Virus record (IMG/VR): IMGVR_UViG_3300046167_000572
Coordinates: 1-54,815 of that record
From: a virus
Length of the DNA: 54,815 nucleotides
Strand: one strand, 5' to 3'
Program-made: the position numbers and the translations under genes
Notes under the pieces: model-generated
The model's database searches: none
The model's input: the letters and a program-made list of their open reading frames with translations, nothing else
What the model was told of the DNA's origin: nothing
Shown: one piece after another, positions 688 through 50,400 of the stretch
Layout of the letters: every line of letters begins with the position of its first letter
Numbering within the stretch: the stretch's first letter is position 1

Positions 688-3600
688 TTAGAATACCGTT
701 GTTACCGACCAAGTATCTTGTGTTTCTCCAACCTGGAGTATTGCATTTCTTGTATTAAATCCAGCACTGCTAGACAGTAGCTGTATAGTTATTTGATCTC
801 CGTTGCTTACAGTCCTTGCTGCGTTTGAATAAGCACCACCATTGATACTAAACTCTGCACTCGTGTGAGTTCCTGTGAGGAATGATGCCGTAGCACTTGT
901 GAAGGATCCGCTAAGAGTTTGCGTATTACTTGTTATTGTTGTGTTTTTTGCTTGCCCGTACTTATCAGTAAAAGTAAATTGATTAGGAGTGTTGACTCCA
1001 AACTTCATAAACCTTGCTTCCACATAATCTACATAGGCTGGATTGCTGTCACCCTGACCCCTAATAAAAAAGTTTAGAGTTCCACTTCCCTCATATCTAA
1101 ATGTTAGAGGTATGTTAGTGGTGTCCGCAGATGATACAAGCCTTGATTGACTAACGTGTCCTGGTAGTTTTTCTATCAATGGTGTTATATAAACTATATG
1201 GGATTGAGATTCACTGGGTGCTGTTGTATCTCCATTTGTAGACGTGTGTGTATTTACATCATATGGAGCATTTGATGTTGGACTTCCATTGTTTCCAAAA
1301 TCGCCATCAGATATAAAAAAGTTTACTGTTTTGACCTGACCTGCTCCGCCCTTTGCTCTTACAAATCCAGTGTAGAATCCTGCTCCAGTTCCTATCTCTG
1401 CTACATGAGCATGTCTCATATCATTATAATAAAACCCACCAATTTCTGTTCCTGATTTCTTTCCGCCTTTTGTTGGCAGTGCAAAGTTATCTGTATTTAC
1501 ATTTTCTACAGTTATGGTGTTTGCTTTTATTTTCCCGCCTTCGATGGTCGTGGTGTTATTGTTTATGTCAGCAGCTGTTCCGCCTGCCTCTACGGGTGTA
1601 ATTGTTAACTTGTTAGCAGAGATTGTGCTAGTTTGTATATTACCGCCGTGGATAGAAGTTTGTCCGTCTGTAGACAGATTGCCTTCAACAATTATGTTAT
1701 TAGCACTTATTAATCCATTAACATCTATTCTTGCCGCATCTATAGTGTCTGATGTTATTTTTGTTGCACTTAGACTATCAATTTTTGCATCATCAATAGC
1801 AGCGTTGCCTATTTTGGCGTTGGTTATAGCTCCGTTTTGTATAAATGCGTCTTGCATATAAACACCAGCTGGAACACTTACTCCGTTTAATGTTGTTGCA
1901 GAGCTTCTAACTATAAATGGCGAAGATATAAAACCACCATTAGGTGATACTATTTGAAAGCTATCAGTTTGAAAAGTTACATCAACAGTTCCTGTGCCAG
2001 CGGATGCATTATTTTCAATAACCATGCCGCCGATTCTTGGTGGATTGCTCCCTGCTGCTACCTGTAATACATAGGCTGCCGCTGCATTACCTTCTATATC
2101 TGCAACTGTTGAAGATAGCTGTGTAACGCTTGAAGAAACACCATTAACATCACTGGTGATTTGGGTTATAGCAGAAGCATTTGCTGTTATGTTTGTTCCC
2201 TGTTGATTAACAGAAGACTGTAAAGAACTAATAGCTGTTGACTGTCCAGATATATCATCATCATTATTTGTGATTTGAGACTCAAGCGATGTGATGCTAT
2301 TATTTATAGCTGTTATATCTCCATCATTTAAAGTTACCTGTGCTTGCAAGGACGATACTGAGCTGGACAGACCAGATATATCCGTATCATTTCCAGAGAC
2401 AGATGTTTGTAGTGCTGTTATATCACTAGCTTGTGAGGTTATAGATCCTTCTGCTGTGGTAACTCTACTATCTAATCCACTAATAGCACTAGAGTTTGAA
2501 GTTATTGTTACCTCTGCCGCATCTAAATCTGTTTGTATGGTAGTTACAGTATTATCCAATGATGTTACATCGTTAGATATGCTTGATATAGAATTGCCTT
2601 GAGTGCTGACCGTTGACTGTAAAGAAGTTATAGCACCAGAGTTAGCAGATATACTTCCATTAGCTGTTGCCAGGTTGTTTGTTAATGTTGATATATCAGA
2701 TGAGTTAGAGGTTATATTATTGCCTTGAGTGCTAACAGTGCTTTGTAGTGTGCTTATGGCTCCTGCGTTGACAACTATACCCTCATCCCTTAATAGCTGC
2801 CACTCTCCTGTTGCTATCTCATCAGCCGTAGCTGAATAAGCTCTATATACTTTATTATCATCATTTGTATTTATCCAAAGATCCCCTATTGACGTTGCTG
2901 TTGGAACGCTGCCTTGAGCGAAGGTTCTTGTCTTTGTGTCTACCTCTGTTGATAATGTGTTCAATGATGTTTGTAAAGCCGTTACATCGGTAGCCGCTGC
3001 CCTTGTTGTAAGGGTCGATTCGTTTGAGGTAACTCTTGTATCTAAACCTGTTATAGCTGAAGCGTTGGTTGATATGTTTGTATTTGCATTATTTACAGAC
3101 GTATTTAAAGAAGTTATAGACGCATTAATTGCTGTTATATCACTATCATTTGCAGACACAGAGCTTTGCAAAGTAGATATTGCAGATGTGTTTGTTGTTA
3201 TGTTTCCCTCTGCGGTTGTTAGGTCTGTTTCCAAAGATGTTACATCTGATTGCAAGGTAGATATATTTCCATTTGCTGTAGATATAGAGCTTGTCAGCCC
3301 AGTGATAGCACTAGAGTTGGCTGTTATATTTCCCTCTGCGGTTGTTACGCTTGACTCAAGGGCTGTTATATCTGACTGTGCAGTAGTTAAAGTACCATTT
3401 ATGGTTGACACGCTAGATGTCAGCCCAGTGATAGCACTAGAGTTGGCTGTTATATTGGTGTTAGCTGTGGATAAACTGTTAGTAAGAGAGGTTACGCTTG
3501 ATGATACAGATGTTATATCTCCATCGTTAGCTGTTATCTGATTTTGTAAACTATTTATTGATGAGGCATTACTCGTTATGTTGCTATTAGCTGTAGACAA

Positions 3601-12239: not shown

Positions 12240-12275
12240 CTAAATTAGTCCACATATAATTTTCTGAAACTTATA

Positions 12276-13004
12276 CTATTCACCACCCTCCCCGCTGTTT
12301 TCAGCGGTCAAGCTAAATGTAAAACTATAAGTGTAAGTTGTGCTACCGCTCTTTTCAAAAATAAGTTGGCTGCTGAAATTCCAATCAGAGGTTCCAGGAT
12401 CTTCAAAATCTCCCCCCGAATCTAAATTTGCATCAAAGTCTACAAAAGAGGTTGATGCTGGTATTGAGACAGCTGACCCATCATATCCAATACTAGAACC
12501 ACTATAATATGGATTTTCATCGCTTCCACTAGCAGCGTCTGTCAAAGAAACCTCATTATGTCTTACTGTATATCCCGCAGGAGGATTTGTTATTCTGTAA
12601 AGAAGAGTATTGTCTGATTGAGAATCTATATCCCCCGATCCATAAAATTTTACTTCTATGTTTCCATTCAGGTATTGAACCCTAAGTTGTATACCGCACG
12701 AGGTATTACTATCTGAACTAGATGACTCAGAAGAAAAAGAATTTATATAAGTTGTTGCAGAAGAAAAATCATGGTTATACCCTAAAATTTCTCCCACCCT
12801 GTGGGGGGCTGCTGTTTTGGAAGAATAAAGAGTTCCGCCAGGATCAGAGGCTGCTGTATTGATTGCCCCATACGTTCCTGCCCAAACAGCTGCAAGAGAT
12901 GTTGGTCCTGTGGTAAACCCATACAAGGAATGAGCATAGTTATTTTGCTCAAACTCATTACGGATTTTAGCTAATGATATAGCCCCTGAAATAGGAACTG
13001 CCAT
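12276..13004 (-). CDS. Tail-associated structural protein, 242 aa
   Basis: The N-terminal motif VPISGAISLAKIRNEFEQNN is typical of short phage tail or baseplate-associated proteins ('P.sG.IsL..i..E'). After a linker, residues 85-240 form a beta-rich, Ser/Gly-rich domain (ITNPPAGYTVRHNEV, STTYTYSFTFSLTA) that looks like a small adhesin or fibre cap. It starts 3 bp after the 90-residue gene and ends just before the cassette promoter, so it is the last gene of the tail block. Confidence 0.75.
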   Translation of the reverse strand: MAVPISGAISLAKIRNEFEQNNYAHSLYGFTTGPTSLAAVWAGTYGAINTAASDPGGTLYSSKTAAPHRVGEILGYNHDFSSATTYINSFSSESSSSDSNTSCGIQLRVQYLNGNIEVKFYGSGDIDSQSDNTLLYRITNPPAGYTVRHNEVSLTDAASGSDENPYYSGSSIGYDGSAVSIPASTSFVDFDANLDSGGDFEDPGTSDWNFSSQLIFEKSGSTTYTYSFTFSLTAENSGEGGE

Positions 13005-13007
13005 AAC

Positions 13008-13280
13008 TTATGACCAAATAGCTCCGCATACAGTTTGCACTAATGCGTCTTCACCTGATACATCTGTAGCAGATCCGCCGTCTTCTACAAATTTAAAAAT
13101 ATTTTTTACTGTTGTGCTTACAGTACCGTCTACGCCAGCATCGTTGCCTGTTCCTGTTAGACTGTGATTGTAAACCACTAGTACAGATGGGTGTTTTGCG
13201 TTTGATGTATTCTCGGCACTTGTATCAGAAAGAGGATAAACCTCACATCTTTGAACTGTTGTTACACTACTAATCGCCAT
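13008..13280 (-). CDS. Small tail accessory protein, 90 aa
   Basis: This soluble protein (AISSVTTVQRCEVYPL at the N-terminus, VCGAIWS at the C-terminus) overlaps the end of the S74 fibre gene by 11 bp, which implies translational coupling. I have seen such 90-residue proteins between fibre genes of marine podoviruses but cannot name a function. Confidence 0.7.
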   Translation of the reverse strand: MAISSVTTVQRCEVYPLSDTSAENTSNAKHPSVLVVYNHSLTGTGNDAGVDGTVSTTVKNIFKFVEDGGSATDVSGEDALVQTVCGAIWS

Positions 13281-16200
13281 TATTATTCTCCTTTAAAAGT
13301 TTAAGTTCTAGTTTCATATATTCTATCTCTTTTTGTTGATCTTTTACAGCCTCAATTAGATAACCAACCAAGTTGCCATAAGCTACTGACTTAGTGCTCA
13401 TTTCATCGTCATTGGTATGAACAAGCTCTGGTGCAATCTTTTCTATTTCTTGGGCTATAACTCCTGAACTATTTTTGCCATCTTTTTCAAAACTGACTCC
13501 ACGCATTTGTAATGCTTTTTTACCATCTAATGTTTGTATGTTACTTTTTAGTCTTTCATCTGAGTAAGCTACAACATCTCCTGTAAAAGTCCCTGTACCA
13601 CTACCGTTAACTTTAAAGTTAATTTGTCCACCTCTAGCACCAACAACAAAGTGTCTAACTTCAGCAGAGGATGAATCTGTAATTCTTCCCATCTCAATAA
13701 ACATGCCGTTAGCTGTGCTTCCACTAGTATTGTTTTGATTTATATAAGTAACAGTTTTGTTATAAGTTCCAGTATTACCATTTGCTGTATAACGATGTGG
13801 AGTTGTAGAAGATGTTTCATGATAGCCTATATTAGTTAGGTTTCTTGCGGAGTCTATTACAGTAGAGCCTGAAATGCCAATACCACCTGCAACATTTAGT
13901 TTTTGTCCAGTACCTACTGAAGCCAAGCCAATACCTAAAGTCCCACTGTTAGTATAAAAATGGTTAAGACTTCCTCTATAAAATATATAGTCAGTTGCAC
14001 TGTTGTCAGTAAAACCTATACCTGTTGTAGCATCTGTTGACTTTGTTATTAGCGGTCCATCAGAGCTAGATGTAAATTCATGCTGATTACCTCCACCATT
14101 TGCTGTAATAGTACCTGAAGATATAGTGCCTATATTAGTTAGGTTTCTTGATGAGTCTATTACATTGGTATTATTAACTCTATAACCTGCAGTATTTAAG
14201 AAAGATAAATTGCCTGACATTTCAGGTGTACCTGAAGCAGTCCATTCACCTAACGTAAAATTACCATCACTAGTCATCGTTAAACTTCTTGATACTACAC
14301 TTGACCAATGGAAGTTTAAGTTTGGAGAATACTGGTTATTGGTTGAGTTATTGGTATTTAATCCTCTTTCTCTAATAGAAATAGGCGACACCTGCCAATC
14401 ATCATGACCAGTAGTATGGTGCGAATGAAATTGACTTACATTTGCTCCTGAATTTACAATAAGTCTAGCACTAGAGATAGTTCCTATATTGCTCATATTA
14501 CGAGAAGCATCTATAACTGCTGTACTTCCTATTCTTAAAGCACCATATAAATATAAATCTGAGTTACTCGCACTTTGTCCAATAAAAACAGGATATGTTG
14601 AATTGTAGTTTAAATATAAACCTTCATAACTAGCACTATTTGGAGCTTTGCCTTCTATATGTCTTACTTTAACTGATGCATTTCCAGTACCACCGACATT
14701 AATGTCTTTTGTGGTCATTTCACTGTTATCAATAACTACCCTATCGCCACCACCTGTTCTAAATGTCCAAGAATTATCTTGTATTCTAATGTATGTGTCG
14801 GTATCACCTGTGTGATAAATATATTCACTAAGATAAAGATCACCTGATGTTGTTATATCACCACTAGAGATAGTTCCTATGTTGGTTAGGTTTCTTGCAC
14901 TTGAAATAACCTCTGTTCCGCCTACATAATATCCACCATTTACATAAAGACCGCTAGAATATAATCTTGATCTCCATGTGCTTCCTAGTCTTGTCTCAAA
15001 TCTATCTGAATATCCTAATATTGAAGTTGTAGGAACTCCTCCAGTACCTGTGGCACTAAATGCGATTACTGAAACATTATTTGCTGGATTAAATAATCTT
15101 ATATTTTCGTCATAGTTATTGAAATTTGTTCCATCATTAATCCAAACCGACCCATTTTGTATTGTTCCTGCAAAAGTGGCGTTTTGTGATGAGTTTAATA
15201 ATAAAGCCTGTGTACCAACTGTAAAAAACTTCATTGTTGAGCCTAATGATTCTGCTCTAAGCTCTACATTGTCTCTATCTGAAGCATTTAATAATAATTT
15301 ACCCCTTACAGTTCCTGCATCAGTTAGGTAGATATTATCTTCTGCTGATATAGCACCTGTACTTGTTATAGCACCACTACTTATTGAATTTATATTTACT
15401 AAGGCACGAGAATTAGTTAATACATTAGTTCCTGAAATTTGAATAAGTCCATCAACATTTAAATCATCACCAACAGTTAATGCAACTCCTGAGGTATCAT
15501 TACTAATACCTCCTCTAAATCTCGCAGCATTCTGAAAATATGAGCCTTGACTAGAGGTAACATAAAAATAATTATTATTTACTAAAACTTCGCCTGTATT
15601 TAAAACCCTGAATGAATCTGAGCCATCACTACCTCTTTTTACTTCAAATGCATAACCACTAGAACCACTTCCAGTAAAAACAGTGTTACCTGTACTTGTA
15701 ATAGCACCACTAGAGATATTTCCACTTGAGATAGTTCCTACATTTAAGTTAAAAGTTCCATTTGACCTCGTAGCCCAATCATGCCAACCATTCCCAGCTG
15801 CATTTAATACTCTTAAATTATTCCTAGAATATAAATAACTAAAATGTTGTAAATAATCACTTGATGTAACATAACCAGCAAAACTTGCGTTTTGAGCTTG
15901 GTCTATAAGAAGAGCTTGTGTCGAACCTGAAGCATTTTGACTTGTAGCAGAACCGCCAGTAAATAATACAAAATCACCACTACCACTTGTTCTCAATCTA
16001 ATAGAACCCGTATTATCAGTCATAATAAGATCTGCATTAGGGTCGTCTGCTTCTAATACTAATAATTCATTATTCGTTGATGAACTAGGTTGTAATACTT
16101 TAATAGGTGCTGAAGCAGTAATAGCCCCACTTGAGATAGTTCCTATATTAGTAAGATTACGAGAGGAGTCTATTACAGTAGTTGCATTTATTCTAAATCC

Positions 16201-19200
16201 ACCAGTTCTTGCATCTATACCAGTTGCATTAATTCTAAGCCTTTCTGCTTGTTCTGTATAAATTCTCACACGATCATTATTATCATCTAAGTAAAGCAAA
16301 TTAGTGTAGCTTGTACCTGAGCCTGTTGCCCATCCAACACCGCCACTATCATGGTAGCTTCTTAGTGTTTTTGTACCAGTACCATCTATAGTTACTGTAT
16401 TTGTTCCTGAAGAATTAGCAGTTATAGCACCACTAGAGATAGTTCCTGCAAAGGTGGCACTCCCATCTTGTGTAAAACTTAAAGCGTTAACTGGACTACC
16501 TAAATTTTCTGACTTAATAATTAATTTATTATTGTTGCTATTGCCTGAACCTTCATAAAAAAATCTCCACCCATACCCAGTACCATTTCCTCTATTTCCT
16601 AAATAAATAGCGGCATCTGAACCACCTAAATCATCTCCACCAATATATAAATAATCTGTAGTTGCAGGTGATGGATTAGCACCTAAATTCATACGAAACT
16701 TGCCACTAGTTGTTATAGCACCACTAGAGATAGTTCCTATGTTTTGTAGATTACGAGAACTTGTTAAAACACTTACAGTTCCAACTTTAAAATTAGATAG
16801 TCCTGAATGCCATACACCATTACCTGCACCTGTTAAGTCTGCTGTAGTTGACCAGTATGGATGCCCATCTGTACCAACGCCAAAAAATCTTGAATGAACA
16901 CCATGAACATCAAACTTCATACCAACTTGATTAGATGAAGGGCTAGTTCTATAAATAACTAATTGATCTGCAACATTGCCTTCATTTATAGTGACTTTAC
17001 CTGCAAAGGTAGCGTTAATAGGATCAAGTTTAAAAGCATTAGTTCCAGCATTATTAAAAAAGAATCCTTCACCATTTAAACTATCAAGAATCATAGCACC
17101 TGTAGAATCTGTAGAAATATTACTTGCTATGCCATTATTTGGTCTTTGTAAAATAAGTTTGTTTCCGCTTCTTACTTCAATATCCCCTGTACTTGTAATA
17201 GCACCACTAGAGATAGTTCCTACTGATAATAAATCATCAAAATACCAATTTTCATTAGCAAAGTCATAGCCAAACTCATGGCTATAATTAGCAGTACCAT
17301 CTATTTTAGGTGCTTGATAAGTTCTATCGTTTGTACTTGCCCAGCCATAGTTCATTTCATGTTTAGTGGTATGCCCTGATTCTACTGCTGGTGCTATTGT
17401 TCTTAATATTACGCCAGAGCCATTTGCTGTAAAAGCAGTAGAGTTATTAGACTGCACAAAACCGCTTGTTGTAATGTTTCCACTAGAGATAGTTCCTATG
17501 TTGGTAAGGTTTCTGCTTAAATCAAACCACTTAGTAGAACCCATATATAAATCGCCATCTGACTTAACAGCGAAAGTATCAAACCCACTTGTTTGATTAT
17601 AAATTCTAAACAGATCATCGCCATCTAATATATACCTTGCATGAAGACCTGTATTTTTAATATCAATACCTGCCTGTCCATTAGAAACATTGTTGTTAAT
17701 GGTAAGTTTTGCCACATCTTTATTAATGGCTATGTTGCCCGTAGTATCTAATTCTCCAGTAATTGAAGCACCACCGCTAGTGGTTTCAAACTTAGGCAAA
17801 TTATTGTGATATAGAGTTACTGCACCACCATTAGTAGCAACTAAATAATTTTTTGTTCCACCTTCATTTTGTAAATTAAGATTCGTACCTTGTAATCTTA
17901 AATTACCAGTTCCAACATCTCTTACATAACTATGACTACCGTCATGGTAAATTTGTAAATCTGAAGAGTTACCAAATACTGCTTTGTCACCATCGCCAAA
18001 GTTTAAGTTAGCAGATGTAGTACCACCATCAAAAGTAATAGTTCCTGTATTTGTAATGTTCTGGGATCCCATATTAAGGGCACCAGTCATGGTTCCGCCA
18101 GCTAGTGGTAATTTTGTAGCTATGCTATTTGTTACAGTTGTTGAGAAGTTTGCATCATCCCCCAGGGCAGCTGCGAGTTCGTTAAGAGTGTTAAGTGTAC
18201 CAGGTGCAGAGTCAGCTAGGTTAGCTATAGCTGTGTCTGTATATGCTGTTGTTGCAACTTTTGTAGAGTTGTCTCCTGCTGACTGAGTAGTGGCTGTTAC
18301 TGAAGATGCTATTGAACCTGCATTAACTGTTCCTGAAAGGTGAAGGTCTTTGAATCTTCCACTTGAATAGCCTAAATCAACAGCACCATTTGAAACACTA
18401 CCAGCACTTGTTACTGGGAAAATAGTACTACCAGCAAAACGTACCCCATAGCTACTTCCTGCTATATCTAGTCCGCTTGAATAACTACCAATACTTCCAA
18501 CTGTTGTATTATCCTTTCTAAAATCAACTAAAGTTCCATCGCTTGTCATTCTATCTAAAAACAATGCTGTACTTGCGTTTCTACTTATAGCAATATTGTC
18601 AGGCTTAACAGCAACACCTTCGTTACCTGTGTCGCTTGGTGGGAAAGTATTTGTAGTTCCAACTAAAAAATTGCCTGATGCGTCTATGACTACTTTAGGG
18701 CTTGATAAATTATCATTAGCATTATCAAAAGCAAAATATGTTTGTGATGCAGGTATTCCTAATCTCCAAGCCGCACTTGTTGCACTTTCAAACTTTTGGT
18801 TTATTAAACCTGCACTTGCAGTAGTTAAATGTAACTTTGCATCTATAGTAGTTTCGCCTATACCCAAAGACTCAGCACTAGCATCCCAAAAGAACTTTGC
18901 TGTTGTGCCTGTGTCTTCGTAAAAGGATATGTCTCCATTAGACGCTATTGCTAAACGCTTTCTTGCATTTCCTTCAGCAGTAACTCTAGTAAAGAAATCT
19001 AAACCACCATTAAATTCTCCTGATGTGGCACTTGTTTTAGAACCTTTAATAACACCAAAAACTCTTTGTGTTCCACTACCATCATCACCTTTAAAACTTA
19101 TTGAAGCACCTGAACCTACTGCTTGTGTTTCAGTTGATTCAAGTTGTAGGGTTGCACCAGTATTACTTACATCTGAACCACCTTTAATTGTAGCATCGCC

Positions 19201-20677
19201 TTCTACTGTAAACCCATCACTTACGACTGTTCCTGTTATGTCTATTCCGCTTGAGCTTGTGGCTAGTTTTGAAACATTATTGTGATATAAAGTTACTGCA
19301 CCATTTTGATTTGCTGTTAAATAAGCTTCATTTGTGCCATAAGATTTAAATTCAAGATTAGTTGCTTTTATTACAAGATTTCCAGTACCACTATCTTCTA
19401 TTCTGCTTTCTGTACCATTATGAAAGATTTGTAAATCATTAGAGCCACCATACATAGACTTAACATTGTCTAAATGTTGATTATGTTTGCTAGTTATAAG
19501 ATAACCATTACCGCCATCTAGCCTAAAATATTCTGCTACACCACCACTACCATCATCACTTCTAAATACAATGTCTTTATCATCTGCAAAGTTACTTATA
19601 AATAAATCACCAGTATTATTTAAAATATGAGTGTCTGTTCCATTATGTAAGAATCTTACATCTGAGCTATTACCCAATAATAATTCTTTGTTATCAAATA
19701 ATTTTATAGATTCAAGGTTTAATAGATTTTTTGAACTATCTATAACAGTTGTGCCACCTATTTGAATATCACCTCTAACAACATTTACAGAACCACCAGT
19801 AGATATAAATAATGCTGTAGATGTAGAGCCATTTCCTGATGTATTGTTATAGTCAGTCCAAAAACTCCAAGCACCATCTCTATACATTGCCGGCAGGTTC
19901 ATTAGTATTTCCTGATGTTGGGCTAGTGCCATATATTCTTAATGAATCGTCATCCCATGAAGGAATACCTATCCAAGCATTTTTAACTGAATTGTTAAAT
20001 GCAACTCTTGCATCTACACTTCCTGAAGCTGAGTTAACAGTAATAGTTTGTGATGATGTCATACCATCAGTAGTTACTGTTCCTGTAACGTCTATGCCTG
20101 AACTGGTTGTTTTAATTTTTTGCGAACCATTATGATTTAATTCAACTGCACCATCTTCACGGGCAATCATCATTATTTCACCATCTAGTTTTTGCATAAG
20201 AATACTAGAGCTTCCCTGTATGCGAAGTGTTCCAGTGCCAGTATCCTTAATATAACTATTACTACCATCATGGTAGATTTGTAAATCATTAGAAGCACCA
20301 AACTGAGCTTTAACATTGTCTGGGAAGGTTGTGCCGTTGGCATCTAGGTAGGCTTCTACTTCTTCGTTGATTGAAGATCCAACCTGGGGAAATGATTCTA
20401 ATACAGCCTTTATTAACCTTAGCTCTGCTAGGTCGCCTGTAACAAATGATCTTGCTGTGGTATCGTCTTGGGCTCTAACAACAGTAAGTGTGTTACCGCT
20501 TCTTGCAGTAACCTTAACTATTTCATTATTTGTTCCGTCATCGAATGTGCAATAAAAGAAATCACCGCCAGTAGGCGATGGTAATACTGAACCATCTGTA
20601 ACTGTAATGCTTGTTGCACTACTGTTTATTCCACTGGCAAGTGTCGTCCTTGCATTATTTTGAAAGACAATCGCCAT
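13270..20677 (-). CDS. Giant S74-type tail fibre/tailspike with intramolecular chaperone (one gene, apparent frameshift near 19890)
   Basis: Two frames (19880-20677 and 13270-19932) join as one protein of about 2,470 residues: the upstream part ends ...SGNTNEPA and the downstream part continues MYRDGAWSFWTDYN. One extra G in GCCGGCAATG explains the break. The N-terminal part (VFQNNARTTLASGINSSATS) is a virion-anchoring domain seen in many fibres. The shaft has repeated 'NDLQIYHDGSNSYI'-like units and about ten modules starting with NIGTISSGAIT. The last ~95 residues form a peptidase S74 chaperone (AYSDERLKSNIQTLDGKKAL, then SGVIAQEIEKIAPELV) with the self-cleaving Ser of SDERLK and a C-terminal coiled coil. 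S74 domains trimerise fibres and then cut themselves off. Confidence 0.9.
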
Positions 20678-31910: not shown

Positions 31911-31940
31911 TTGACACTACATATCGTATGGCATTAATAT
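31911..31940 (+). promoter_or_regulatory. Promoter of the ribozyme operon
   Basis: A consensus -35 TTGACA (31911-31916) lies 18 bp from a weaker -10 TAATAT (31935-31940). CAATGTTTACA follows at 31946-31956 and recurs in the integrase-side promoter. The first gene's ribosome site AAAGGAGGG precedes ATG 31981. No other promoter of this quality is seen between here and the terminator at 35.2 kb. Confidence 0.7.
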
Positions 31941-31980
31941 GTAATCAATGTTTACAAACAAACACCCAAAGGAGGGCAAT

Positions 31981-32358
31981 ATGACAACATTAAGACAGAC
32001 AACTAATAACGAAATACTAGCTAACGCTATGAAGCATGCAGAAGAGCCAACACTTTCAAGCATTATCCTTATGTATGTATGGGCATACAAAAGTAAACCT
32101 GCAAGCGATGCAACATATGTTGGAATTCTTGAGGCTGTATTTGAGTACATTGATAACACTCGCTGGGTTGCAGTGAGCCCATCAGAAAAATTAATTCAAT
32201 GGATAAACAGCTCTAACAAAATTGCAAACTCTGGGTATGAGAATTACAAGCAAGCAATAGACTCAGTGCTTGATCAGTATATTGGCAACAGTGGGGTTCA
32301 AGAGCATCCTATATCTTGGACCGCAACTGTAGGTAAACCTGTAAAAATACAAGACTAA
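31981..32358 (+). CDS. Ribozyme-operon gene 1, hypothetical, 125 aa
   Basis: ATG 31981 is chosen over the open frame's 31948 because AAAGGAGGG sits just upstream and the same leader pattern precedes genes 2 and 4. The protein (MTTLRQTTNNEILANAMKHA) is soluble and mostly helical, with 'WAYKSKPASDATYVGILEAV' and 'TRWVAVSPSEKLIQWINSSN'. I recognise no family. Its TAA lies inside the first hammerhead's stem I, so the mRNA would be cut 38 bases after the stop. Confidence 0.8.
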   Translation: MTTLRQTTNNEILANAMKHAEEPTLSSIILMYVWAYKSKPASDATYVGILEAVFEYIDNTRWVAVSPSEKLIQWINSSNKIANSGYENYKQAIDSVLDQYIGNSGVQEHPISWTATVGKPVKIQD

Positions 32359-32402
32359 CTGATGAGACCTGATTGGTCGAAACGCCGTGAGGCGTCTTAG
32401 TC
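32353..32402 (+). ncRNA. Type I hammerhead ribozyme 1
   Basis: All core positions match the consensus: CTGATGA (32359-32365), GAAA (32379-32382) and GTC at 32394-32396, with predicted cleavage after C32396. Stem I pairs GACTAA (32353-32358) with TTAGTC (32397-32402); stem II pairs GACC with GGTC (loop TGATT); stem III pairs CGCC with GGCG (loop GTGA). Stem I is open-ended, hence type I. The gene 1 stop codon TAA is part of stem I. Confidence 0.96.
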
Positions 32403-32426
32403 AAACAAACAGCCAAGGAGGCAATT

Positions 32427-32846
32427 ATGACAACATTTAACGTATATCAAATAACAGTAAGCAATGAGGTCTATGACTTTGTTAATACAGATGGTGAGAG
32501 CCATACTTCTGCTGGTGAGAAGTACCCTGAGTACAAAGCAAAATTAGAAACAATGATGGGTTTTAAAGATTGGAGTGATTCCTACTTCAAACATTACACG
32601 CATGTTTGTGATGTAAAGATCGAGGGAAACAATCCTGAAGATGTTTTTATTGCTCTTAACTCTGGTTCTGATTATGCACTTGATACAGCACCATCAATCG
32701 TCAAGCATACAAACTTTCACAGCTTGAGCGTTGGTGACATTGTTGAAGATGATCTGGGTAACTTTTATTTCTGCGACAGTTATGGCTTCAAGAAGTTTAA
32801 TAACCCAAGAGTGTTACAAGAGGAGGTGATACGCAAAGCAGGCTAA
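32427..32846 (+). CDS. Ribozyme-operon gene 2, YodL-like C-terminal motif, 139 aa
   Basis: The C-terminal stretch HSLSVGDIVEDDLGNFYFCD, then SYGFKKF, matches the YodL-like/'HSLSVGDV' module found in many phage and plasmid small proteins. The N-terminal part carries KHYTHVCDVKIEGNNPEDVF, an acidic alpha/beta unit. The strong SD AAGGAGG lies 6-7 bp before ATG. It is encoded entirely between two ribozymes and its stop TAA is inside the second. No function is established. Confidence 0.83.
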   Translation: MTTFNVYQITVSNEVYDFVNTDGESHTSAGEKYPEYKAKLETMMGFKDWSDSYFKHYTHVCDVKIEGNNPEDVFIALNSGSDYALDTAPSIVKHTNFHSLSVGDIVEDDLGNFYFCDSYGFKKFNNPRVLQEEVIRKAG

Positions 32847-32892
32847 CTGATGAGCTCTCAATGAGCGAAACTCCCTACGGGGAGTCTTAGTC
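32841..32892 (+). ncRNA. Type I hammerhead ribozyme 2
   Basis: Core: CTGATGA (32847-32853), GAAA (32867-32870), GTC (32884-32886), with cleavage after C32886. Stem I is GGCTAA/TTAGTC (one G-U); stem II is GCTC/GAGC with loop TCAAT; stem III is CTCCC/GGGAG capped by a TACG (UNCG-type) tetraloop. Stem II and III sequences differ from ribozyme 1 while pairing is kept, which is compensatory evidence of selection. Confidence 0.96.
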
Positions 32893-32915
32893 AAAACAAT
32901 TACTGGGAGGTAAAT

Positions 32916-33299
32916 ATGACAAAACTAAATACTAAAACTGATGCTCAAATAACTTGGGAACAAGAAATTGCTATTGCTACTAAGATTAACAGTACAGCTG
33001 ATAAGGCTGAATTGTCTTTAATCAATCCTATTAGATTCTTGAAATATGTTGAGCTTAAAAGATCATTCCATGATCAAGCAGAAGATATGGCTAAATGGAT
33101 CACTAAAGAGCAGTCCAAGGATCATGGACTGGTCCAATCCTTTGCCTACTTCATGGACAAGGGCTACACCATTAACAAGCCTGACAGATATGAGTACAGA
33201 TCAGCGGTCTTCAATGATCTTGCTGAGGCTATCAAGAATGATTCTGAGTACAACATATATGACATAGTTCGTAGATGGGATATGTACTATCACTCATAG
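32916..33299 (+). CDS. Ribozyme-operon gene 3, hypothetical, 127 aa
   Basis: The protein is soluble and helix-rich (ELSLINPIRFLKYVELKRSF, DQAEDMAKWITKEQSKDHGL, DLAEAIKNDSEYNIYDIVRR). I do not recognise the family. SD GGGAGG precedes ATG by 7 bases. The TAG stop's last base is the first base of the third ribozyme. Confidence 0.8.
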   Translation: MTKLNTKTDAQITWEQEIAIATKINSTADKAELSLINPIRFLKYVELKRSFHDQAEDMAKWITKEQSKDHGLVQSFAYFMDKGYTINKPDRYEYRSAVFNDLAEAIKNDSEYNIYDIVRRWDMYYHS

Positions 33300-33365
33300 G
33301 CTAACTGATGAGACCTGATTGGTCGAAACCTTCTCTTTTCCCCGCGAATCGAGGAGGTCTTAGTC
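33299..33365 (+). ncRNA. Type I hammerhead ribozyme 3
   Basis: Core: CTGATGA (33305-33311), GAAA (33325-33328), GTC (33357-33359), with cleavage after C33359. Stem I is GGCTAA/TTAGTC; stem II is GACC/GGTC with the same TGATT loop as ribozyme 1; stem III is a 7-bp helix (33329-33335 with 33351-33357, one U-G) and a 15-base loop at 33336-33350. Confidence 0.95.
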
Positions 33366-33386
33366 AAACAAACCGTAGGAGGGAAT

Positions 33387-33599
33387 ATGACAACAATAGA
33401 AATGAAAATGAAAAGATCAATAGAAGACATGGAGCAAATCTTAGTAGATGCAAAAGTTACTACTTGGGATGCTTTAGAGAATCTATATGATCACATGAGC
33501 CAGTATGCAATTGATCCTGACGGAGATTTTGAGGGCGTTGTTAGGCAAAAGTACAGAACGTATTTATTTGAACAAAGAAAAAATGGAGGGCAATCATAA
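33387..33599 (+). CDS. Ribozyme-operon gene 4, hypothetical, 70 aa
   Basis: This short acidic helical protein (TIEMKMKRSIEDMEQILVDA, then DALENLYDHMSQYAIDPDGD) starts from ATG after TAGGAGGGAAT. It is the last gene behind a ribozyme: the RNA made by the third cleavage would start 27 bases upstream of its ATG and run to the terminator. The stop overlaps the next start (TAATG). Confidence 0.78.
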   Translation: MTTIEMKMKRSIEDMEQILVDAKVTTWDALENLYDHMSQYAIDPDGDFEGVVRQKYRTYLFEQRKNGGQS

Positions 33600-33781
33600 T
33601 GGATAACTACACAGCTGTAGGTATTGCAGAGGGATTCATTCCAGCTGATCATGAGGATCAAGTCAGGGAGGCATGGCAACATTTAGTTGACACTGGTCTG
33701 GCTTGGCAACTTCAGGGCTGGTTTGGTAGAACTGCAATGGGTTTAATAGAACAAGGTTTAATAACACAAGGAGGTGAATAA
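33599..33781 (+). CDS. Widespread small phage protein with WQ-LVDTG-FGRTA motif, 60 aa
   Basis: The sequence AWQHLVDTGLAWQLQGWFGR belongs to a common small phage family (I think DUF7417) usually encoded in early or accessory operons. Its biochemical role is unknown. It is coupled by TAATG on both sides. Confidence 0.83.
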   Translation: MDNYTAVGIAEGFIPADHEDQVREAWQHLVDTGLAWQLQGWFGRTAMGLIEQGLITQGGE

Positions 33782-34017
33782 TGAGCCTAAATAATCAGAA
33801 CTCTAAATTTGTTTCTTACTTTCTAGATTTTTATCGTGATAGTGGAGATGACATAGCACCCTTAGAGGCGTGCAAGTATTTAAAAATGTATAAAACAAAT
33901 TTTCCTAATCTATGGAGCGGTGGAGACAGCCTAGACAGAGAAAAGGTTTATGAATTATTTTTAATGGGTAGAGCAGATGCTATTGCCAAAGAACACAAAC
34001 AAATGGAGGTGAAATAA
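33781..34017 (+). CDS. Hypothetical early protein, 78 aa
   Basis: A small soluble protein (NQNSKFVSYFLDFYRDSGDD, APLEACKYLKMYKTNFP) with SD GGAGGTGAATA before ATG and TAATG coupling to the next gene. No family is recognised. The charged helical ends resemble host-takeover mini-proteins, but nothing in the sequence proves that. Confidence 0.75.
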   Translation: MSLNNQNSKFVSYFLDFYRDSGDDIAPLEACKYLKMYKTNFPNLWSGGDSLDREKVYELFLMGRADAIAKEHKQMEVK

Positions 34018-34307
34018 TGACTAATTGGATAACTAAACAAGAACTTGAAACAGCTAAAACCATGGCTTCTGAAATATTTCAAGATTTTAATAGAGTCTAT
34101 TGCTATCAAGAGGGTGAACAAACATGGACAGAGATTGATATAAACGGAAAGTTTTTTGATGTTGAGTGCTTTGATGATGACATGGATAAACCAAGAACTG
34201 ACACATATTGCTCTATATATCCTGTATACCCTACAGAGTGCGGAACGTGGAGAGAAACAGATGGTTCAAAATGGATAAGATTATTTACAAACAAGGAGGT
34301 GAAATAA
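34017..34307 (+). CDS. Hypothetical early protein, 96 aa
   Basis: The protein is acidic with aromatic strands (TWTEIDINGKFFDVECFDDD, DTYCSIYPVYPTECGTWRET). Four Cys residues (positions about 20, 45, 62 and 70) are not in a clear zinc pattern. SD GGAGGTGAAATA precedes ATG; the stop overlaps the next ATG. No family recognised. Confidence 0.73.
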   Translation: MTNWITKQELETAKTMASEIFQDFNRVYCYQEGEQTWTEIDINGKFFDVECFDDDMDKPRTDTYCSIYPVYPTECGTWRETDGSKWIRLFTNKEVK

Positions 34308-34807
34308 TGAGTGCGTATTTATGTAATGCAGATCATATAGGTGAGATGAGCAAGTTCTTTGCTAATGGTAGTGTGCCAATGGCTAGTAGTGAGCTTGTGA
34401 CTCATGCCTATAACATGGTGACAAGGGAGAAGATTTCTTTTTCTTCCCCGCAAGAGGCGGCTGAAATATTAGCCAGAGAGAATATCAAAAGCTTACAGGC
34501 TAGATATCCAGATAGCTGGAAGGGTTTCTTTACATGGAACCCTGAAGGCAAGGATGATGAGTTTGATGAGAGCATGATCCTGCTCTTTGTTAATCAATGC
34601 CAAGCCAAAGCTAAGGGATATCCCAAGGTTAATAAGAAACAGCTTTACGGCATGATCAACTGCTACAGGTATCAAGCCTGCGAAGATGAGAGCTGGGTCC
34701 AGTCTGATGCCTATTGGCTGACACAAAGCCTAAAGAATATTGTGTCAAGCAAGCTCATTGGTGATGTTGATATGTGGGAGTTTAGACCAGAGGAGGACGT
34801 AGCATGA
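34307..34807 (+). CDS. Hypothetical early protein, 166 aa
   Basis: ATG 34307 (MSAYLCNADHIGEMSKFFAN) is used because GGAGGTGAAATA precedes it; the open frame begins upstream at 34208 inside the previous gene. The segment 'MINCYRYQACEDESWVQSDA' occurs in a loosely conserved phage family whose N-terminus senses nothing obvious. It has no membrane segment and no catalytic motif that I recognise. Confidence 0.77.
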   Translation: MSAYLCNADHIGEMSKFFANGSVPMASSELVTHAYNMVTREKISFSSPQEAAEILARENIKSLQARYPDSWKGFFTWNPEGKDDEFDESMILLFVNQCQAKAKGYPKVNKKQLYGMINCYRYQACEDESWVQSDAYWLTQSLKNIVSSKLIGDVDMWEFRPEEDVA

Positions 34808-35085
34808 TTATTGATGGAAGTTTTGAATTAGACTTTGTTGACAAAGGAACACCACATAATGGCATGCGTACTGACTATGATGGCTTTAAACCTTTCTGGG
34901 AAGTTCAGTGTCTAAGCAATAGCAATCTATGGTCAGGGAGCAAGCAAGACTGTATTGAATGGATGGCTGATCATTATGTGGATCACTTTAATGAGAACTC
35001 AAAAACTGAAGAGCAAGCTCTAAAAAAATCTTTAGCTTGGGTCAATAAGTGTTTGAAAAAAGCTGAAGCAGAGGAGGTGTCATGA
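34804..35085 (+). CDS. Hypothetical early protein, 93 aa
   Basis: ATGA overlap with the preceding gene. The product has a beta-strand N-terminus ([36 protein letters not shown]) and a helical, Lys-rich C-terminus ([17 protein letters not shown]). No family recognised. Confidence 0.74.
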
Positions 35086-35228: not shown

Positions 35229-35243
35229 ACAAATTAAAAGAGA

Positions 35244-35272
35244 AGCGGGGTAATTACCTCGCTTTTTTTTGC
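35244..35272 (+). terminator. Rho-independent terminator ending the ribozyme operon
   Basis: The inverted repeat AGCGGGGTAA/TTACCTCGCT (one G-U, tight loop in TAATTA) is followed by a run of eight T. It closes the rightward operon that starts at 31.9 kb. Confidence 0.92.
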
Positions 35273-44404: not shown

Positions 44405-47400
44405 CTAATCCCGCTTTTTCTTCTTCTTAATTCTTTCTAAACCGTCTTGTAGGATCTTATTATATTTAAGATGTATTTTGTGCTTATCTTCGTCTATCTG
44501 ATCTGACAGTCTTGAATACCTTGCGTAATCTTTTTCTCGCAAATTCATAATTGTCTTTTCTCTTTGACCTAGTTTTCTAAGTTCTTTGTCTGCCGATTTC
44601 ACAGCCTCTCCTAGTTTAAGATATTCTGAATCAAATCCTGTTCTTTCTACATAGTCTCTTAATGCAGCTTTATTGTTATCTTTTTTATAGTTTGTAAACT
44701 CTCCAACTTTTTGAGAAATAATATCTTTGTTTTTATAAAAGTTGCTTGCGTCAACATAGTCCATGGGGTCTGCTGTTAGGACTCTAACGAATGGAACCTC
44801 GTTTAATTCAATGCTTTCGTTTGTTCCTGTTGTAAGGTTGTTATATACCTTTCCAGATATTGATGCTGTTCTTTCAGCCATGGTATACATGCCACCAAGA
44901 TAGGACTGCAAGTAGAACTTTATTTTGTCTGGGCTCCAGTCAACCATTCCTTTGTCAAACTTACCGCCACCAGTAGCACTGTTAACCATCATTGTAAATT
45001 CTCTATAGAACTCATTAGTGTTTCTAAGCTTTCTTGATGATTGTGGGGTTTCTGCTGTTCCTGGAAACTGTTCTTTATAAACTGGAGCTCCTGTCCATTT
45101 TTCATTTACCCTGGATTCATACAATGGCTTAGCTACTGATGGAACAATTGTTTTTATAAAGTCTATTCCTTGATCCTGAGAATAGCCTATGCCCACTGGG
45201 GAGAATGCCCCAGATACTATTCCAGCCATATCCTTGCCCATTTCTACTGGTGTTCTTTTTTGATATCCAAGTATTGGTTTACTTGCCACCTCGGTTCCCA
45301 TTCTTCCTAAGTTATAGAATATGTTATACCCATATGGCAAAGGAATAGCTAAAGCAAATGGCTTGCCATTAACGGTATATCTTCTGCTGTATTTATTAAA
45401 TTTAACCTCGCCATCCTGAAACTTTACGCCAGGTATCGGGATAACCATAAATCTTTCTTTTTCGTGATCTGGTATCTTATCAATAAGAAGTTTTCCATCC
45501 TCGTCCTCATCTGATATTAACATTGAGTACATCTGCACAAGTGCACCAAGACCAGTAAGACCGCCGATTATATTTTTTGCGGACTTTGAAACCCCGCTCC
45601 AAACAACTTTTCCATTCTGAAATCCTATTGGGTTCATTCCTCTAAACATGTTTACAGAACCCTGAACAGATGCGTTTGCAAAAATATAAAATGCGTTAAC
45701 TACAGGTCCAAGTTTTCCAGATCTGTTAAAGTTTATAGTTAAGTTCTTTGCCAGAACTGCGGCATCATCGAAGTCTTGTTTGGATGCTTTCTTTGTACCG
45801 CCAGCGGCGTTAATGTATTCTTTAAAGACAGCAAACCTTGCAGTGTTTTCAATAGCATTGTTTACATTTTCAACCATTTTAAATGTTGAGTTATAAACCT
45901 TCTTGGCGTTTACCTTTCCCTTTCCAGAGTGAACTAAAGAAAGCTCTTCCATGGCTTTTGCTATTTGATCTATGTCTTTGGCATTCACATAACCAGTCTG
46001 ACCACCAAACTTCTGGAACGCATCAAAGAGTGCAAATGTTTCTGGATCTTTTTCTTGTAAGCTTTTAGTTACATAGCCATCCTTAAGCTGCCTCATTGTT
46101 TTGGCTATATTGTTTGGCTTAAAAGCTTTTGCAAGATCTAGGTTCTGTGCTCTTCCCCCCTCTATCTCTTGTTCTTTTAATAAATTAAAGTACCCAGTTT
46201 GATAATCCCTAAAGAAGTTTCCAACAATAAATTCTGGAGCGAGTGATGTATATAGGCTGGAAAGTGTTCCTGTAAGTCCTCTCATTACACCAATTGACCA
46301 ATGCATACTGTTATTTCCCCAAGCATCTAATCCCTTTGCTAGTCTCTCGTCTCTTATAACAATAAACTTTTGTTTGCCATTTTCCTTAAATCCTATTTTA
46401 GATTCTTTGCCATCCCACTCGTGTGGTCTTTCGTTTCTTTTTACACCCCTGACCTGCCATAGCTTCTTATCTGGGAATGTATTAACAAGCTCCGCCAAGG
46501 ATTTGTCTATGAAGTTCTTTTCTCCCCGAACCACAGCCGACTGCCTTCTTATAACAGCCTGTTCTAAAGGTGGTCCTGACTCAGAGGTCCTTCCCTTAGC
46601 CTCCATTACCTCTCTTCCAAACACACTTATTCCGCCGCCAGTTGCTCTTGGTGAGCTGTCTTCAATAGTTTCAACAGAGAATCCAACTAGCGGCACATAG
46701 TATCTATATGAGCTATCCCAGTCCTCCAGGGTTTGCTCATCCACAAGATCTTGATCTCTGTATATATTTAATGTGTCCTGTTGATATGATTCAAGTAGCT
46801 TGAATGCATTTAAGAGGTTCTTACCTTTTTCATTATTTGCACTTGCCTTGTTTGTCTTTTCATCAAACTTAATTCCAATAGACTCGAGAGTCTCAATCGC
46901 TTTGTCTGTTTTTATTCCAGATCCGCTGTCTTGGTATTTTGCTAATACATTTTTTCTTTTAGTGATCTTTCCTTTAAGGACAGTTCTTTTGCTTTTTTCC
47001 GTTTCAGCAAGAAGTTCAGCCTCAAGCTCGGGTATTTCTTTGTTGTATTTTTCATTGATCTTTTTATTTCTTTCTGGGGCGTGCAGGTTTTTAAGAAAAT
47101 CGTTGAACTCTTCTCTTGATATATTGACGCTATTTAAGAACTCAGATATTTCTGTGGTTGCCTCCACAGCCTTGTCCATTCCGTACTTAACCTTTCCATG
47201 ATACACATCTGTTTTTCTTACAACAGACAGTCTCCTCATTTCTTTTGGGCTAACTAATTTTCCTAGCTTTTCTTCAAAAGCCTTTAGCCTGTCTAGTTTA
47301 TCTACAGCCTGTTCTTGAAAAGTTGAGAATGTTTGAAATAGTTGAGACGCATCGTTGGATGTCATTGTCTCGTAAATATCGAATTGAGATTCTTCTTCTG

Positions 47401-50400
47401 GTAGAACCTTTTTAGATAGGGTTGGGGGTGTTAGGTCTGCTTGTCCTGTGTAGTTTGAGTTGATTGATTCATCTCTTTTCCATCCGTATTTTTCTGAGAA
47501 GGTTTGGTCGACTTCATCAATTCTCTGTTTGAGGTCCCTGACGATATTCTCAACCCTTCCCTGAAGATCGGGTGAGATTCCTCTAATACTCTCAATGTAA
47601 CTTTCGCCATTTTTATTTTTACTCCAGTTGTTAGAAAGATATCCTTCGCTAGACGCAAATTGTCCAAGATCAACATCTTCGTTATTTTCAAATTGTACAC
47701 CATTTAAAACATTGTTTACAATCTTTTTAAATTTTAAGTTTGGTATGTCAAGGTATGAAAAGTTAATTAGCCTTGCACCATTTGCTGTCCCTATAGGGTT
47801 ATAGTCCTTGATTCCTGACTCTTTTTCCATTGCCTCTGCAAGCATCTGTGTTTCGTTTTCAGTTAATGGTCTTCCTATATTAATATCCATTCCATTTAAC
47901 TTAGTCTTAGCTATTCCCTTTTGGAAGAATGGTTTGTGATACCCAATACCGTCCTGCTTTAAAAGTATTCCAAGGGCTGCCGAGTATGCTTTTGCTAGGT
48001 CCTCTGACGCTGGTTCTAGTTTTGCAAATTCCGTTTTTGGATCTGCTTTGTATATCTTTGTTAAAGCTATTTGTGTTTGTGATCCTGGGCTGACTTTACC
48101 CTCAAAGAATCCTGGTGCCTCGACTATTCCAGGCGATAGTATCCCCAGAGTATTGGCAACAAGGTCTGATCCGCTTTCATCTTGTAAAGCTTTCGATATT
48201 GCAACATGGTATTCCTGCAACTGCTCGTATGGTGCATTAAACATCTCAGGCATATGCCCTGATGTTCTTCCTGGTATAGACTCCCAGCTTATTTGACCTA
48301 ATGATTTTTCTAGTGCATTGGCATAATTAAACCCAGCAGCATTTACATCGGTCCCTTCATCTCTAGCCTTTTGAGCCGTCCATATAGCAGCCTGTACCTG
48401 TTGGGGTTCCCAACCAAGCTGATTAGATATTTTTTGTATTTCATTTTCTACGAATGAGTATTGTGCTGGCGTTGGTGCGTCAGTATCAAAGTTAAATGCC
48501 CTGACCATCCAAACATCTACGGTTACTCCCTGTGTCCTGGACGGATCTATAACCCTCATAATATTGTTATAAAATTCGTTGGTTTTTCTTCCCCCCCAGT
48601 CCTTGCCCTCAAAGACATTAATTATCTTTTCGCTCATTGCTTTAGGAAATCTTCCAGTCTTTACTGTTTCTCCAGCAATATATTGATAGTAAGCCTGTAG
48701 TGCATAGTTAAAGTTTGCCTCCACTGGGGTTCCTGGTGATGTTATTGCAATAACCTGTGCAAGTTTGTCTGCGTTTTCTTTGTTGTTGTTTGTTATATCT
48801 AGTAGTGCTTGACCACTTTGCTCATACCAGAATCTTTGAGAAACGCCTTCCTTGGCTAGACCTCTCATTTTTCGCCTGAGTGCACCTACTTTTTGTTTGG
48901 AGTCCATTCCCTCTGGAGCTCCAACAACCTGACCAGTTGTACCTACTTGTTTTAGTTCTGATATTTCAGGTCGAACACCGTCCCTGTCTGTAGATTCTTC
49001 CTGTCCAACCAGTCTTGCACTGGTTTCTGAGACGATATCGCCTGATCTATCATCTTCAACGTCTGTTCTTCTGTCTGAAACCTCAATACTTCGCTGGGCA
49101 CTGGGTGTTTGAAAAGCAAGTTGTACTCTCTCAGCTTTCTTTGTAGTTCCGTCAATTGAAATTGCATCGTTTAGTTCCTCTATTAATTTTAGTGCTGTTG
49201 GAGCCTTCTCTTCTAGCAGTGATCTATTAGTATAATATAATTCATGAAGCTGACCAAACACCTCTGCTTTAATCATTCTTTCTTGAGCTGGGTTCATACT
49301 TCCATTCATTCCAATCATTTCATTAAATGGATATCTAAGCATGTTGCCGTCATAGTATCTGCCCTTCTGACCCTCATTGAACATTCTGAGTGCCTCTTTC
49401 ATTATCTCCCCGCCAGAGTTGTCCGCAATATCTAGAGTGCCTGTGCCTTCGTTGTAGCTAAAGTTTGGTAAATTAAATAAAGGAGACCCTGCTGTTGCTG
49501 GTTGAAGTATATTAAGATTATCGCTAGGAGATCTTGCAATTGTAAAGTCTATATGATGTCCCATTTCATGGGCTATGGTTGATCTTAAATTTAACTTAGA
49601 TCCTAACTTGTTTGTAAATTTTAACTCTGATATTCCAGATATAGGAGAGAAGGATACGCCCCTGAGTGTCGGCATGTAGATTCCATATGAGGCGTCAAAT
49701 GTTTTATATCTATTGTCTTTGGTATGAACGCCAACAAAATCAAGATCTGTAAATATATCAAGTGGCATTCCTGACTTGGTTAAATCTATAATTCCTTTAG
49801 AAGCGTTTATACCCTCTTCGTTATTTAAGTCTCTAAACCTATAATACTTTTGTTCTCCAGACGGGTCCTCTAATAATTTTTCTTCAAAGGTTCTTGCATC
49901 TATTATTAAACTTTTTGTTAGATCTAATTCTTTTTGATCATATGTATCATTTCTTATCTGGTCTATATTTAAAGGTTGGGTTGAGGGGCAGGTCTGTCTC
50001 AAGAAGATTTATATTTGCGTCAAGCCTTTGAGTTATTATTGGAGATAGATTTAAATCTATTTCAGAAGTTTGTGGTCCCGCAACTTTCTTTTTAAAAACT
50101 CCTGAAAGAGGGTCATCAAAATTAAACTCTTCTTGTTTTTTTGCTGGAAACTTAAGCTGAAGAGATTCCATATATTCATCTGGCTGAGAAACTTCTCCCT
50201 CTTCTCCAACCACTAAAGGCTTTCTGAAATCTATAAAAGGTTGATTAAAGTATTCTAATGCAATTACCTCATCTGCGGTCCATCCCTTGCCATTGGCGTT
50301 TGGATCTAAAAGTATTCTTGACGCACTATCAATTGCGTTGTAGTTAAGGGTTAAATTATTAACATTGTTATTAAAGTTTTCTATAAATAATTCTAGTTCA

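Follow-up and report, generated by a model that had tools for sequence, protein, structure and literature searches.

It is likely that a single phage operon of ~3.3 kb is punctuated, within its first 1.4 kb, by three active hammerhead ribozymes of type I, as judged from the sequence of the window, that is, the whole 54,815-base virus record analyzed here. The first three genes of the operon each overlap at their end with one of the ribozymes, and the activity of the three ribozymes, taken by itself, is very probable. An initial annotation had proposed three type I hammerheads in the same orientation, each of the first three genes being followed by one, with every core base matching the consensus and all three helices formed; the gene map and a structural scan recovered exactly these elements, and the cleavage sites obtained from the structure fall at the bases that had been predicted.

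Hammerheads and gene layout in the window

The window encodes a terminase, an SU10-like portal protein, tail proteins, DnaB, ERF, YqaJ and a phage integrase, so that, being a virus record with terminase, portal, tail and integrase genes, it presents a phage or prophage setting. Its structural genes lie on the minus strand, and the small plus-strand genes run from ~31.9 kb (Table 1). Also on the minus strand, a 1865-aa ORF beside the integrase (44405-50002) had its only matches in PHROGs to which no function is assigned (the best being phrog_14770, E 2.6e-129), and a 2220-aa ORF (13270-19932) has tail fibre matches scattered along it. We infer a single transcript for genes 1-9, which are presumably early genes, because promoter-like and terminator-like sites are present; the promoter-like site is weak evidence, because 11 such sites occur in the region versus 13.0 expected from shuffles. 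The program-made ORF list gives gene 1 an in-frame start at 31948, and its start is probably 31981; the leader that precedes this start resembles the predicted ribozyme-made leaders (ACAAACAAACACCCAAAGGAGG vs AAACAAACAGCCAAGGAGG). Genes 1-3 have no family match above cut-off, and gene 2 has a YodL-like match of 23.7 bits, slightly below the Pfam cut-off of 24.

Table 1. Features of the operon and its ribozymes (positions in the window)
Feature	Position	Strand	Remarks
Promoter-like site (TTGACA-18-TAATAT)	31911..31940	+	best of the stretch; 10/12 positions; 5′ of gene 1
Gene 1	31981..32358	+	125 aa from the probable start ATG 31981; AGGAGG at 31970-31975; stop codon in ribozyme 1 stem I
Hammerhead ribozyme 1, type I	32353..32402	+	predicted cleavage after C32396; model R1 71.1 bits (32351-32406)
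Message 2 leader, predicted, post-cleavage	32397..32426	+	30 nt (TTAGTCAAACAAACAGCCAAGGAGGCAATT)
Gene 2	32427..32846	+	139 aa; stop codon in ribozyme 2 stem I
Hammerhead ribozyme 2, type I	32841..32892	+	predicted cleavage after C32886; model R1 71.4 bits (32839-32896)
Message 3 leader, predicted, post-cleavage	32887..32915	+	29 nt
Gene 3	32916..33299	+	127 aa; last base of stop codon is first base of ribozyme 3 stem I
Hammerhead ribozyme 3, type I, long stem III	33299..33365	+	predicted cleavage after C33359; model R1 59.9 bits (33297-33369)
Message 4 leader, predicted, post-cleavage	33360..33386	+	27 nt
Genes 4-9	33387..35085	+	tightly packed, stops and starts overlap or touch; ribozyme-free
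Gene 5	33599-33781	+	DUF7417/phrog_3908; gene most widely common to the window and related loci
Terminator-like hairpin	35237..35270	+	15 pairs and T run; likely end of the operon

The core CTGATGA / GAAA / GTC is intact in all three copies, each of which carries the type I elements CUGANGA, GAA-A and U-H before the cut and forms three helices with stem I open-ended, stems I/II/III being of 6/4/5, 6/4/6 and 6/4/8 bp in copies 1, 2 and 3. Stem I is nearly identical across the copies, its second pair being A-U or G-U; in copies 1 and 2 the final three bases of its 5′ arm form the stop codon of the preceding gene, and the next start codon follows the predicted cut by 30, 29 and 27 nt. The variation of stems II and III with pairing kept, which had also been claimed, holds within the window for stem III, which is distinct in each copy, and fails for stem II in copies 1 and 3, where it is the same; these two copies share leader sequence as well. 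All three copies have a UNANU loop II, and their stem I closes with a G-C pair that has an A on either side; the combination of this loop with A-G..C-A at the stem I end may represent a known kind of tertiary contact between stem I and loop II. Lying between genes 1 and 2, 2 and 3, and 3 and 4, the copies form a cluster of the kind in which at least two hammerheads flank single genes or blocks. Neither a fourth copy nor an opposite-strand ribozyme was found in the window by the structural scan or by covariance model R1 (see below) up to E 10.

Folded alone, each minimal motif takes the hammerhead as its lowest-energy structure (3/3). Folded with flanks, copies 2 and 3 have alternative stem I pairings lower by 0-2.5 kcal/mol in an energy model that leaves tertiary contacts outside, the stem I pair probability being at most 0.55 in copy 2 and at most 0.15 in copy 3, and copy 1 is the only one that is clearly the best fold in its context. 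The fold energy relative to shuffles has a z of -2.45 for copy 1, and of -1.34 and -0.66, which are unremarkable, for copies 2 and 3. Therefore, cleavage efficiency may be partial, or may depend on translation and tertiary contacts. The predicted fold with flanks pairs 32886-32891 (CUUAGU, the stem I 3′ arm of copy 2) with 32902-32907 (ACUGGG), in the Shine-Dalgarno stretch of gene 3, and this modelled pairing could possibly link cutting to translation.

The pattern CTGATGA..GAAA..TCTTAG, whose TCTTAG end was derived from the motif already observed, matches three times in the window and not once in 100 dinucleotide shuffles. The bare core CTGATGA..GAAA..GTC gives the same three matches versus 0.41 expected, and as many turn up in 2 of 100 shuffles; this pattern is weak alone, and therefore the stems carry the weight. 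Covariance model R1, built from 70 virus hammerheads with the window and eleven near relatives left out, returned copies 1-3 with E-values of 1.1e-15, 9.1e-16 and 8.5e-13 in a 101-kb search. The search with Rfam hammerhead models that the initial annotation had recommended yielded no hammerhead in the window at curated cut-offs. Below cut-off, RF00163 (Hammerhead_1), with which the copies are identical in topology and core, scored 27.1 bits for copy 1 and 15.3 bits for copy 3 (cut-off 34), and RF02275 was the best clan match for copy 2 in a relaxed search (17.3 bits, among the matches listed). RF03152 (RAGATH-1), with the same core order and similar arms, is the sole Rfam family listed for all three copies, at 23.4, 19 and 23.1 bits (cut-off 56.3); thus, the copies are assigned to neither RF00163 nor RF03152. 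A single one of 40 model R1 matches from 13 chosen sources reached an Rfam cut-off, and this blind spot suggests that such arrays are often unannotated.

Conservation of the ribozymes in relatives and other viruses

Two relatives, L026 and L036, contain the whole stretch, and both keep all three ribozymes at the same places with intact cores, so that core bases are retained in close relatives, a point on which the initial annotation had staked its reading. Their identity to the window is 99% in gene 2, 83-85% in gene 3 and 73-74% in the first 101 residues of gene 1; gene 4 is 99% identical in L026 and was not found in L036. In L112, the ribozyme versions on either side of gene 3 (72%) are those that flank it in the window; L028, with two ribozymes, has the versions in reverse order and genes 1-4 unmatched, and its stem III differs from that of copy 3 in ways that preserve pairing; in L045, the end of gene 2 is succeeded by the ribozyme version that the window has after gene 3. 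For gene 5, the identity is 93-97% in L028, L045 and L112. The relatives thus keep ribozymes while some of the genes have been exchanged. Cores are intact in all 13 ribozymes of L026, L027, L028, L036, L045 and L112, a count from a structural scan that demands the core bases and hence cannot alone show that the core was never lost; the change-tolerant model R1 found no extra decayed copies in L026, L028, L036, L045 and L112. Among named phages, megablast of window positions 25-35 kb against INPHARED gave no match, a gene 2 search for a named close relative gave none either, and the terminase is at most 35.6% identical among the ten best matches listed (top, Roseobacter phage CRP-7).

Strong variation of the stems with kept pairing appears only across other virus contigs. 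A first seed pattern, which fixed four bases per stem I arm, gave at least 120 virus stretches, and 80 of 121 records (window included, among the matches listed) hold a three-stem ribozyme, 161 ribozymes in total; the other 41 hold none. In bacterial and archaeal genomes the same pattern gave 46 matches, one of them with three stems (a Daejeonella MAG, L128), and a prophage in a sequenced bacterium was rejected as a candidate. A set free of this seed bias was obtained by searching virus loci by core and stem II only: among the matches listed, stems I and III are formed as well in 204 of 209 distinct sequences (stem I of at least 5 bp, stem III of at least 4 bp, non-G cleavage base), versus 0.2% with the 3′ parts shuffled and 6.8% with stem I arms dealt among the sequences, and the stem I arms comprise 80 distinct versions among the matches listed. 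This figure was relied on instead of a wider count of 248/253, which included loci whose seed fixed part of stem I. Alignment A1, which omits the eleven near relatives and includes two copies from L198, a locus sharing a short gene 5 piece with the window, has a covariation score of 0.775 as a structure-selected alignment, versus 0.153 when shuffled and 0.05-0.09 for slid partners; its 99.8% paired cells are not independent evidence, because A1 was selected by structure and stem lengths. Covariation across related genomes, which had been put forward as a check, is seen in the family. Additionally, where stem-loop II is 13 nt long, the UNANU loop occurs in 289 of 357 ribozymes and in 57 of 92 once the seed patterns are excluded, and an A stands on both sides of the stem I closing G-C pair in 346 of 418 (in each case among the matches listed).

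Placement at gene ends and cultured carriers

The placement of the ribozymes was assessed with ORF and start calls made by simple rules, not by a gene finder, and their abundance is given as lower bounds from contig slices. Among the matches listed of the stem-II-only loci, the structural scan finds a ribozyme in 200 of 207 records; within the slice covered, 128 of the 200 have a single copy, 72 at least two and 27 at least three, and in all 72 multi-copy records the copies share one strand. Of 275 ribozymes, 224 have the stop of an upstream ORF at -15..+20 relative to the core, 132 have and 143 lack a Shine-Dalgarno start 18-50 nt past the cut, and 111 follow both rules (all among the matches listed), versus 10%, 9% and 1.3% of random positions for the stop, the start and both, these rates being drawn from all virus loci, not from the stem-II-only loci. 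When all virus loci are taken, among the matches listed, 109 of 279 records have at least two copies, a same-strand ORF of at least 80 aa spans 17 of 440 ribozymes versus 41% of random positions, and neighbouring ribozymes are separated by a median of 540 nt. In 20 whole records, most of them chosen for many copies, up to 14 copies were found (two records), on one strand in 20/20. On one virus contig (L104, 3517-5251), three type II hammerheads (RF02276) and three type I form one series on the same strand; its opposite strand has a glutamine riboswitch match at 12245-12338. Proteins encoded 3′ of ribozymes had a Pfam match in at most 31 of the 148 scanned, namely window genes 2 and 3 and 146 of a reduced set of 226 taken longest first, four of the first 150 being omitted; the matches include phage RNA polymerases, DNA polymerase, DNA ligase, ArdC-like anti-restriction proteins and MazG.

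Applied to full records, model R1 finds copies in 10 of 13 named phages, which are no census because they were reached by short DNA matches (CRP-7, by terminase similarity). Pelagibacter phage Eistla EXVC025P has two copies in series, at the ends of gp15 and gp19; the other pelagiphage carriers are HTVC019P, in which the copy sits in a longish gap between annotated genes, HTVC022P, HTVC131P, HTVC168P, HTVC304P and Jormungand EXVC012P, and the carriers beyond the pelagiphages are Flavobacterium phages elemoA and elemoB (partial genome) and Agrobacterium phage OLIVR1. Model R1 gave no match in Roseobacter phage CRP-7, and none at E 0.01 in Streptomyces phages R4 and phiRKBJ001, with which a piece of 19-22 bases is shared. 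In Jormungand (L380), two adjacent ArdA-annotated ORFs (822-1689) lie ~1.3 kb upstream of the hammerhead at ~3001-3067; ardA next to hammerheads is noted in a passage of Perreault et al. (PMC3088659).

Proposed operon processing, its alternatives and known systems

We propose that each hammerhead would fold in the nascent transcript as RNA polymerase passes and would cut itself after its UC. In hammerhead cleavage, the upstream piece receives a 2′,3′-cyclic phosphate and the downstream piece a 5′-OH, and it is from this established chemistry that we infer both cleavage and end groups here. The three cuts would yield message 1 (gene 1), message 2 (gene 2), message 3 (gene 3) and a polycistronic message 4 (genes 4-9), and as predicted they would leave every gene undamaged. 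Messages 1-3 would end in the two ribozyme hairpins and a 2′,3′-cyclic phosphate, and messages 2-4 would begin with a 5′-OH, an A-rich leader of 27-30 nt and a Shine-Dalgarno sequence, thereby resembling the leader that the predicted promoter would give gene 1. The single-gene messages foreseen by the initial annotation would accordingly be confined to genes 1-3, the rest remaining polycistronic from 33360 to the terminator-like hairpin. The least certain part is the benefit, which may be host-independent mRNA processing by which small genes prone to exchange are uncoupled in stability and dosage. In phage T7, RNase III has this effect, cutting the polycistronic early mRNA between small early genes and leaving 3′ hairpins; processing in T7 differs in that a host enzyme, not a ribozyme, makes the cuts.

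A somewhat unlikely alternative is a switch coupled to translation, wherein a ribosome at the stop codon would cover stem I and the core, and cleavage, occurring only if the upstream gene is poorly translated, would tune dosage. The frequency of upstream stops on or next to the ribozyme (224/275, among the matches listed) is consistent with it, as are the two of three window stops that form part of stem I, the near-equal competing folds of copies 2 and 3, and the pairing that the stem I 3′ arm of copy 2 can form before the cut with the gene 3 Shine-Dalgarno stretch. However, any intergenic element would be expected to adjoin a stop in compact phage genomes; only 67 of 209 stem I arms (among the matches listed) end in TAA, hence no strict rule; and the leaders are of just 27-30 nt, with no riboswitch found in the window by Rfam at cut-offs.

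It is improbable that the main role of the repeats is to provide DNA homology through which small cassettes are swapped, with ribozyme activity incidental, even though in L028 and L045 the genes near the ribozymes differ, gene 5 is 93-95% identical and the ribozyme versions are reordered, and copies 1 and 3 share the sequence of stem II and leader. Repeats kept for homology should conserve sequence, whereas the arms diverge with pairing kept (204/209, among the matches listed), the stem III changes of L028 relative to copy 3 likewise preserve pairing, and in L112 gene 3 is still bracketed by the pair of ribozyme versions seen in the window. We consider it very improbable that successive cuts free a gene-length RNA whose 5′-OH and 2′,3′-cyclic phosphate ends are ligated into a circle: successive same-strand ribozymes would release exactly such pieces, but every gene released in the window comes with a Shine-Dalgarno leader and a stop of its own, which is what a linear message requires, and in the part of their work that bears on it Perreault et al. 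(PMC3088659) could not detect spliced or circular products. Chance or decayed look-alikes, to which the Rfam cut-offs left unreached and the three bare-core matches in 2/100 shuffles might point, are hardly credible and contradicted by the 0/100 shuffles of the full pattern, the E-values of 1e-15 to 1e-12 from a model built without the window, the pairing in the stem-II-only loci and the three intact copies in L026 and L036.

The proposed processing of the operon by its hammerheads has precedents, and the earlier statement that no mRNA-processing operon of this kind had been described does not stand, since passages of Perreault et al. 2011 (PMC3088659) describe clustered prophage hammerheads flanking genes and propose the same processing; three tandem arrays were shown there to cleave in vitro, and one triple array in E. 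coli. As in those prophage clusters, for example the triple array around ardA in Agrobacterium tumefaciens, the hammerheads of the window flank single genes or short blocks; going by the description there, the window differs in that all three copies share a single type I form, marked by the UNANU loop II and the A-flanked closing G-C pair of stem I, and in its genes. The same paper (PMC3088659) reports for the haloviruses HF1/HF2 a mapped transcript 5′ end at most 3 nt from the hammerhead cleavage site; this hammerhead likewise lies directly upstream of a phage gene, but it is a variant form before a helicase gene of an archaeal virus, and the passage gives no series. Theta ribozymes of gut phages, in the part of the report concerned (PMC10879173), are also small self-cleaving phage RNAs for which RNA processing is proposed, but they are HDV-like and often adjoin tRNAs. 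In passages of a 2017 review (PMC6155905), such ribozymes are described as clustered and flanking small ORFs, and what hammerheads do in bacteria and phages is treated as an open question; a 2020 review states that phage genomes contain all three hammerhead types (PMC7761336, in part), and a 2023 paper, in the portion consulted, notes enrichment near Mu-like phage genes and other ribozymes, for a reason given as unknown (PMC10085705). In the open-access literature, which mostly leaves subscription papers outside, no title among the matches listed is on hammerhead arrays in marine phages or pelagiphages.

In conclusion, the ribozyme kind had already been described, and the scale of up to 14 copies per contig and the placement rule may be new. 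We advance only tentatively the broader proposal that many unrelated tailed phages process their early operons by gene-end hammerheads of a type I subfamily, largely missed at Rfam cut-offs and numbering up to 14 per contig, which would give exchanged genes 5′-OH leaders and 3′ hairpins and would replace host RNase III/RNase E. The rules that emerge are testable, namely copies on a single strand in each record, stop codons at the ribozyme, a short leader in roughly every second case, and arrays persisting despite the exchange of some genes. With cultured phages that have named hosts among the carriers, the old question of what hammerheads are for becomes testable as well.
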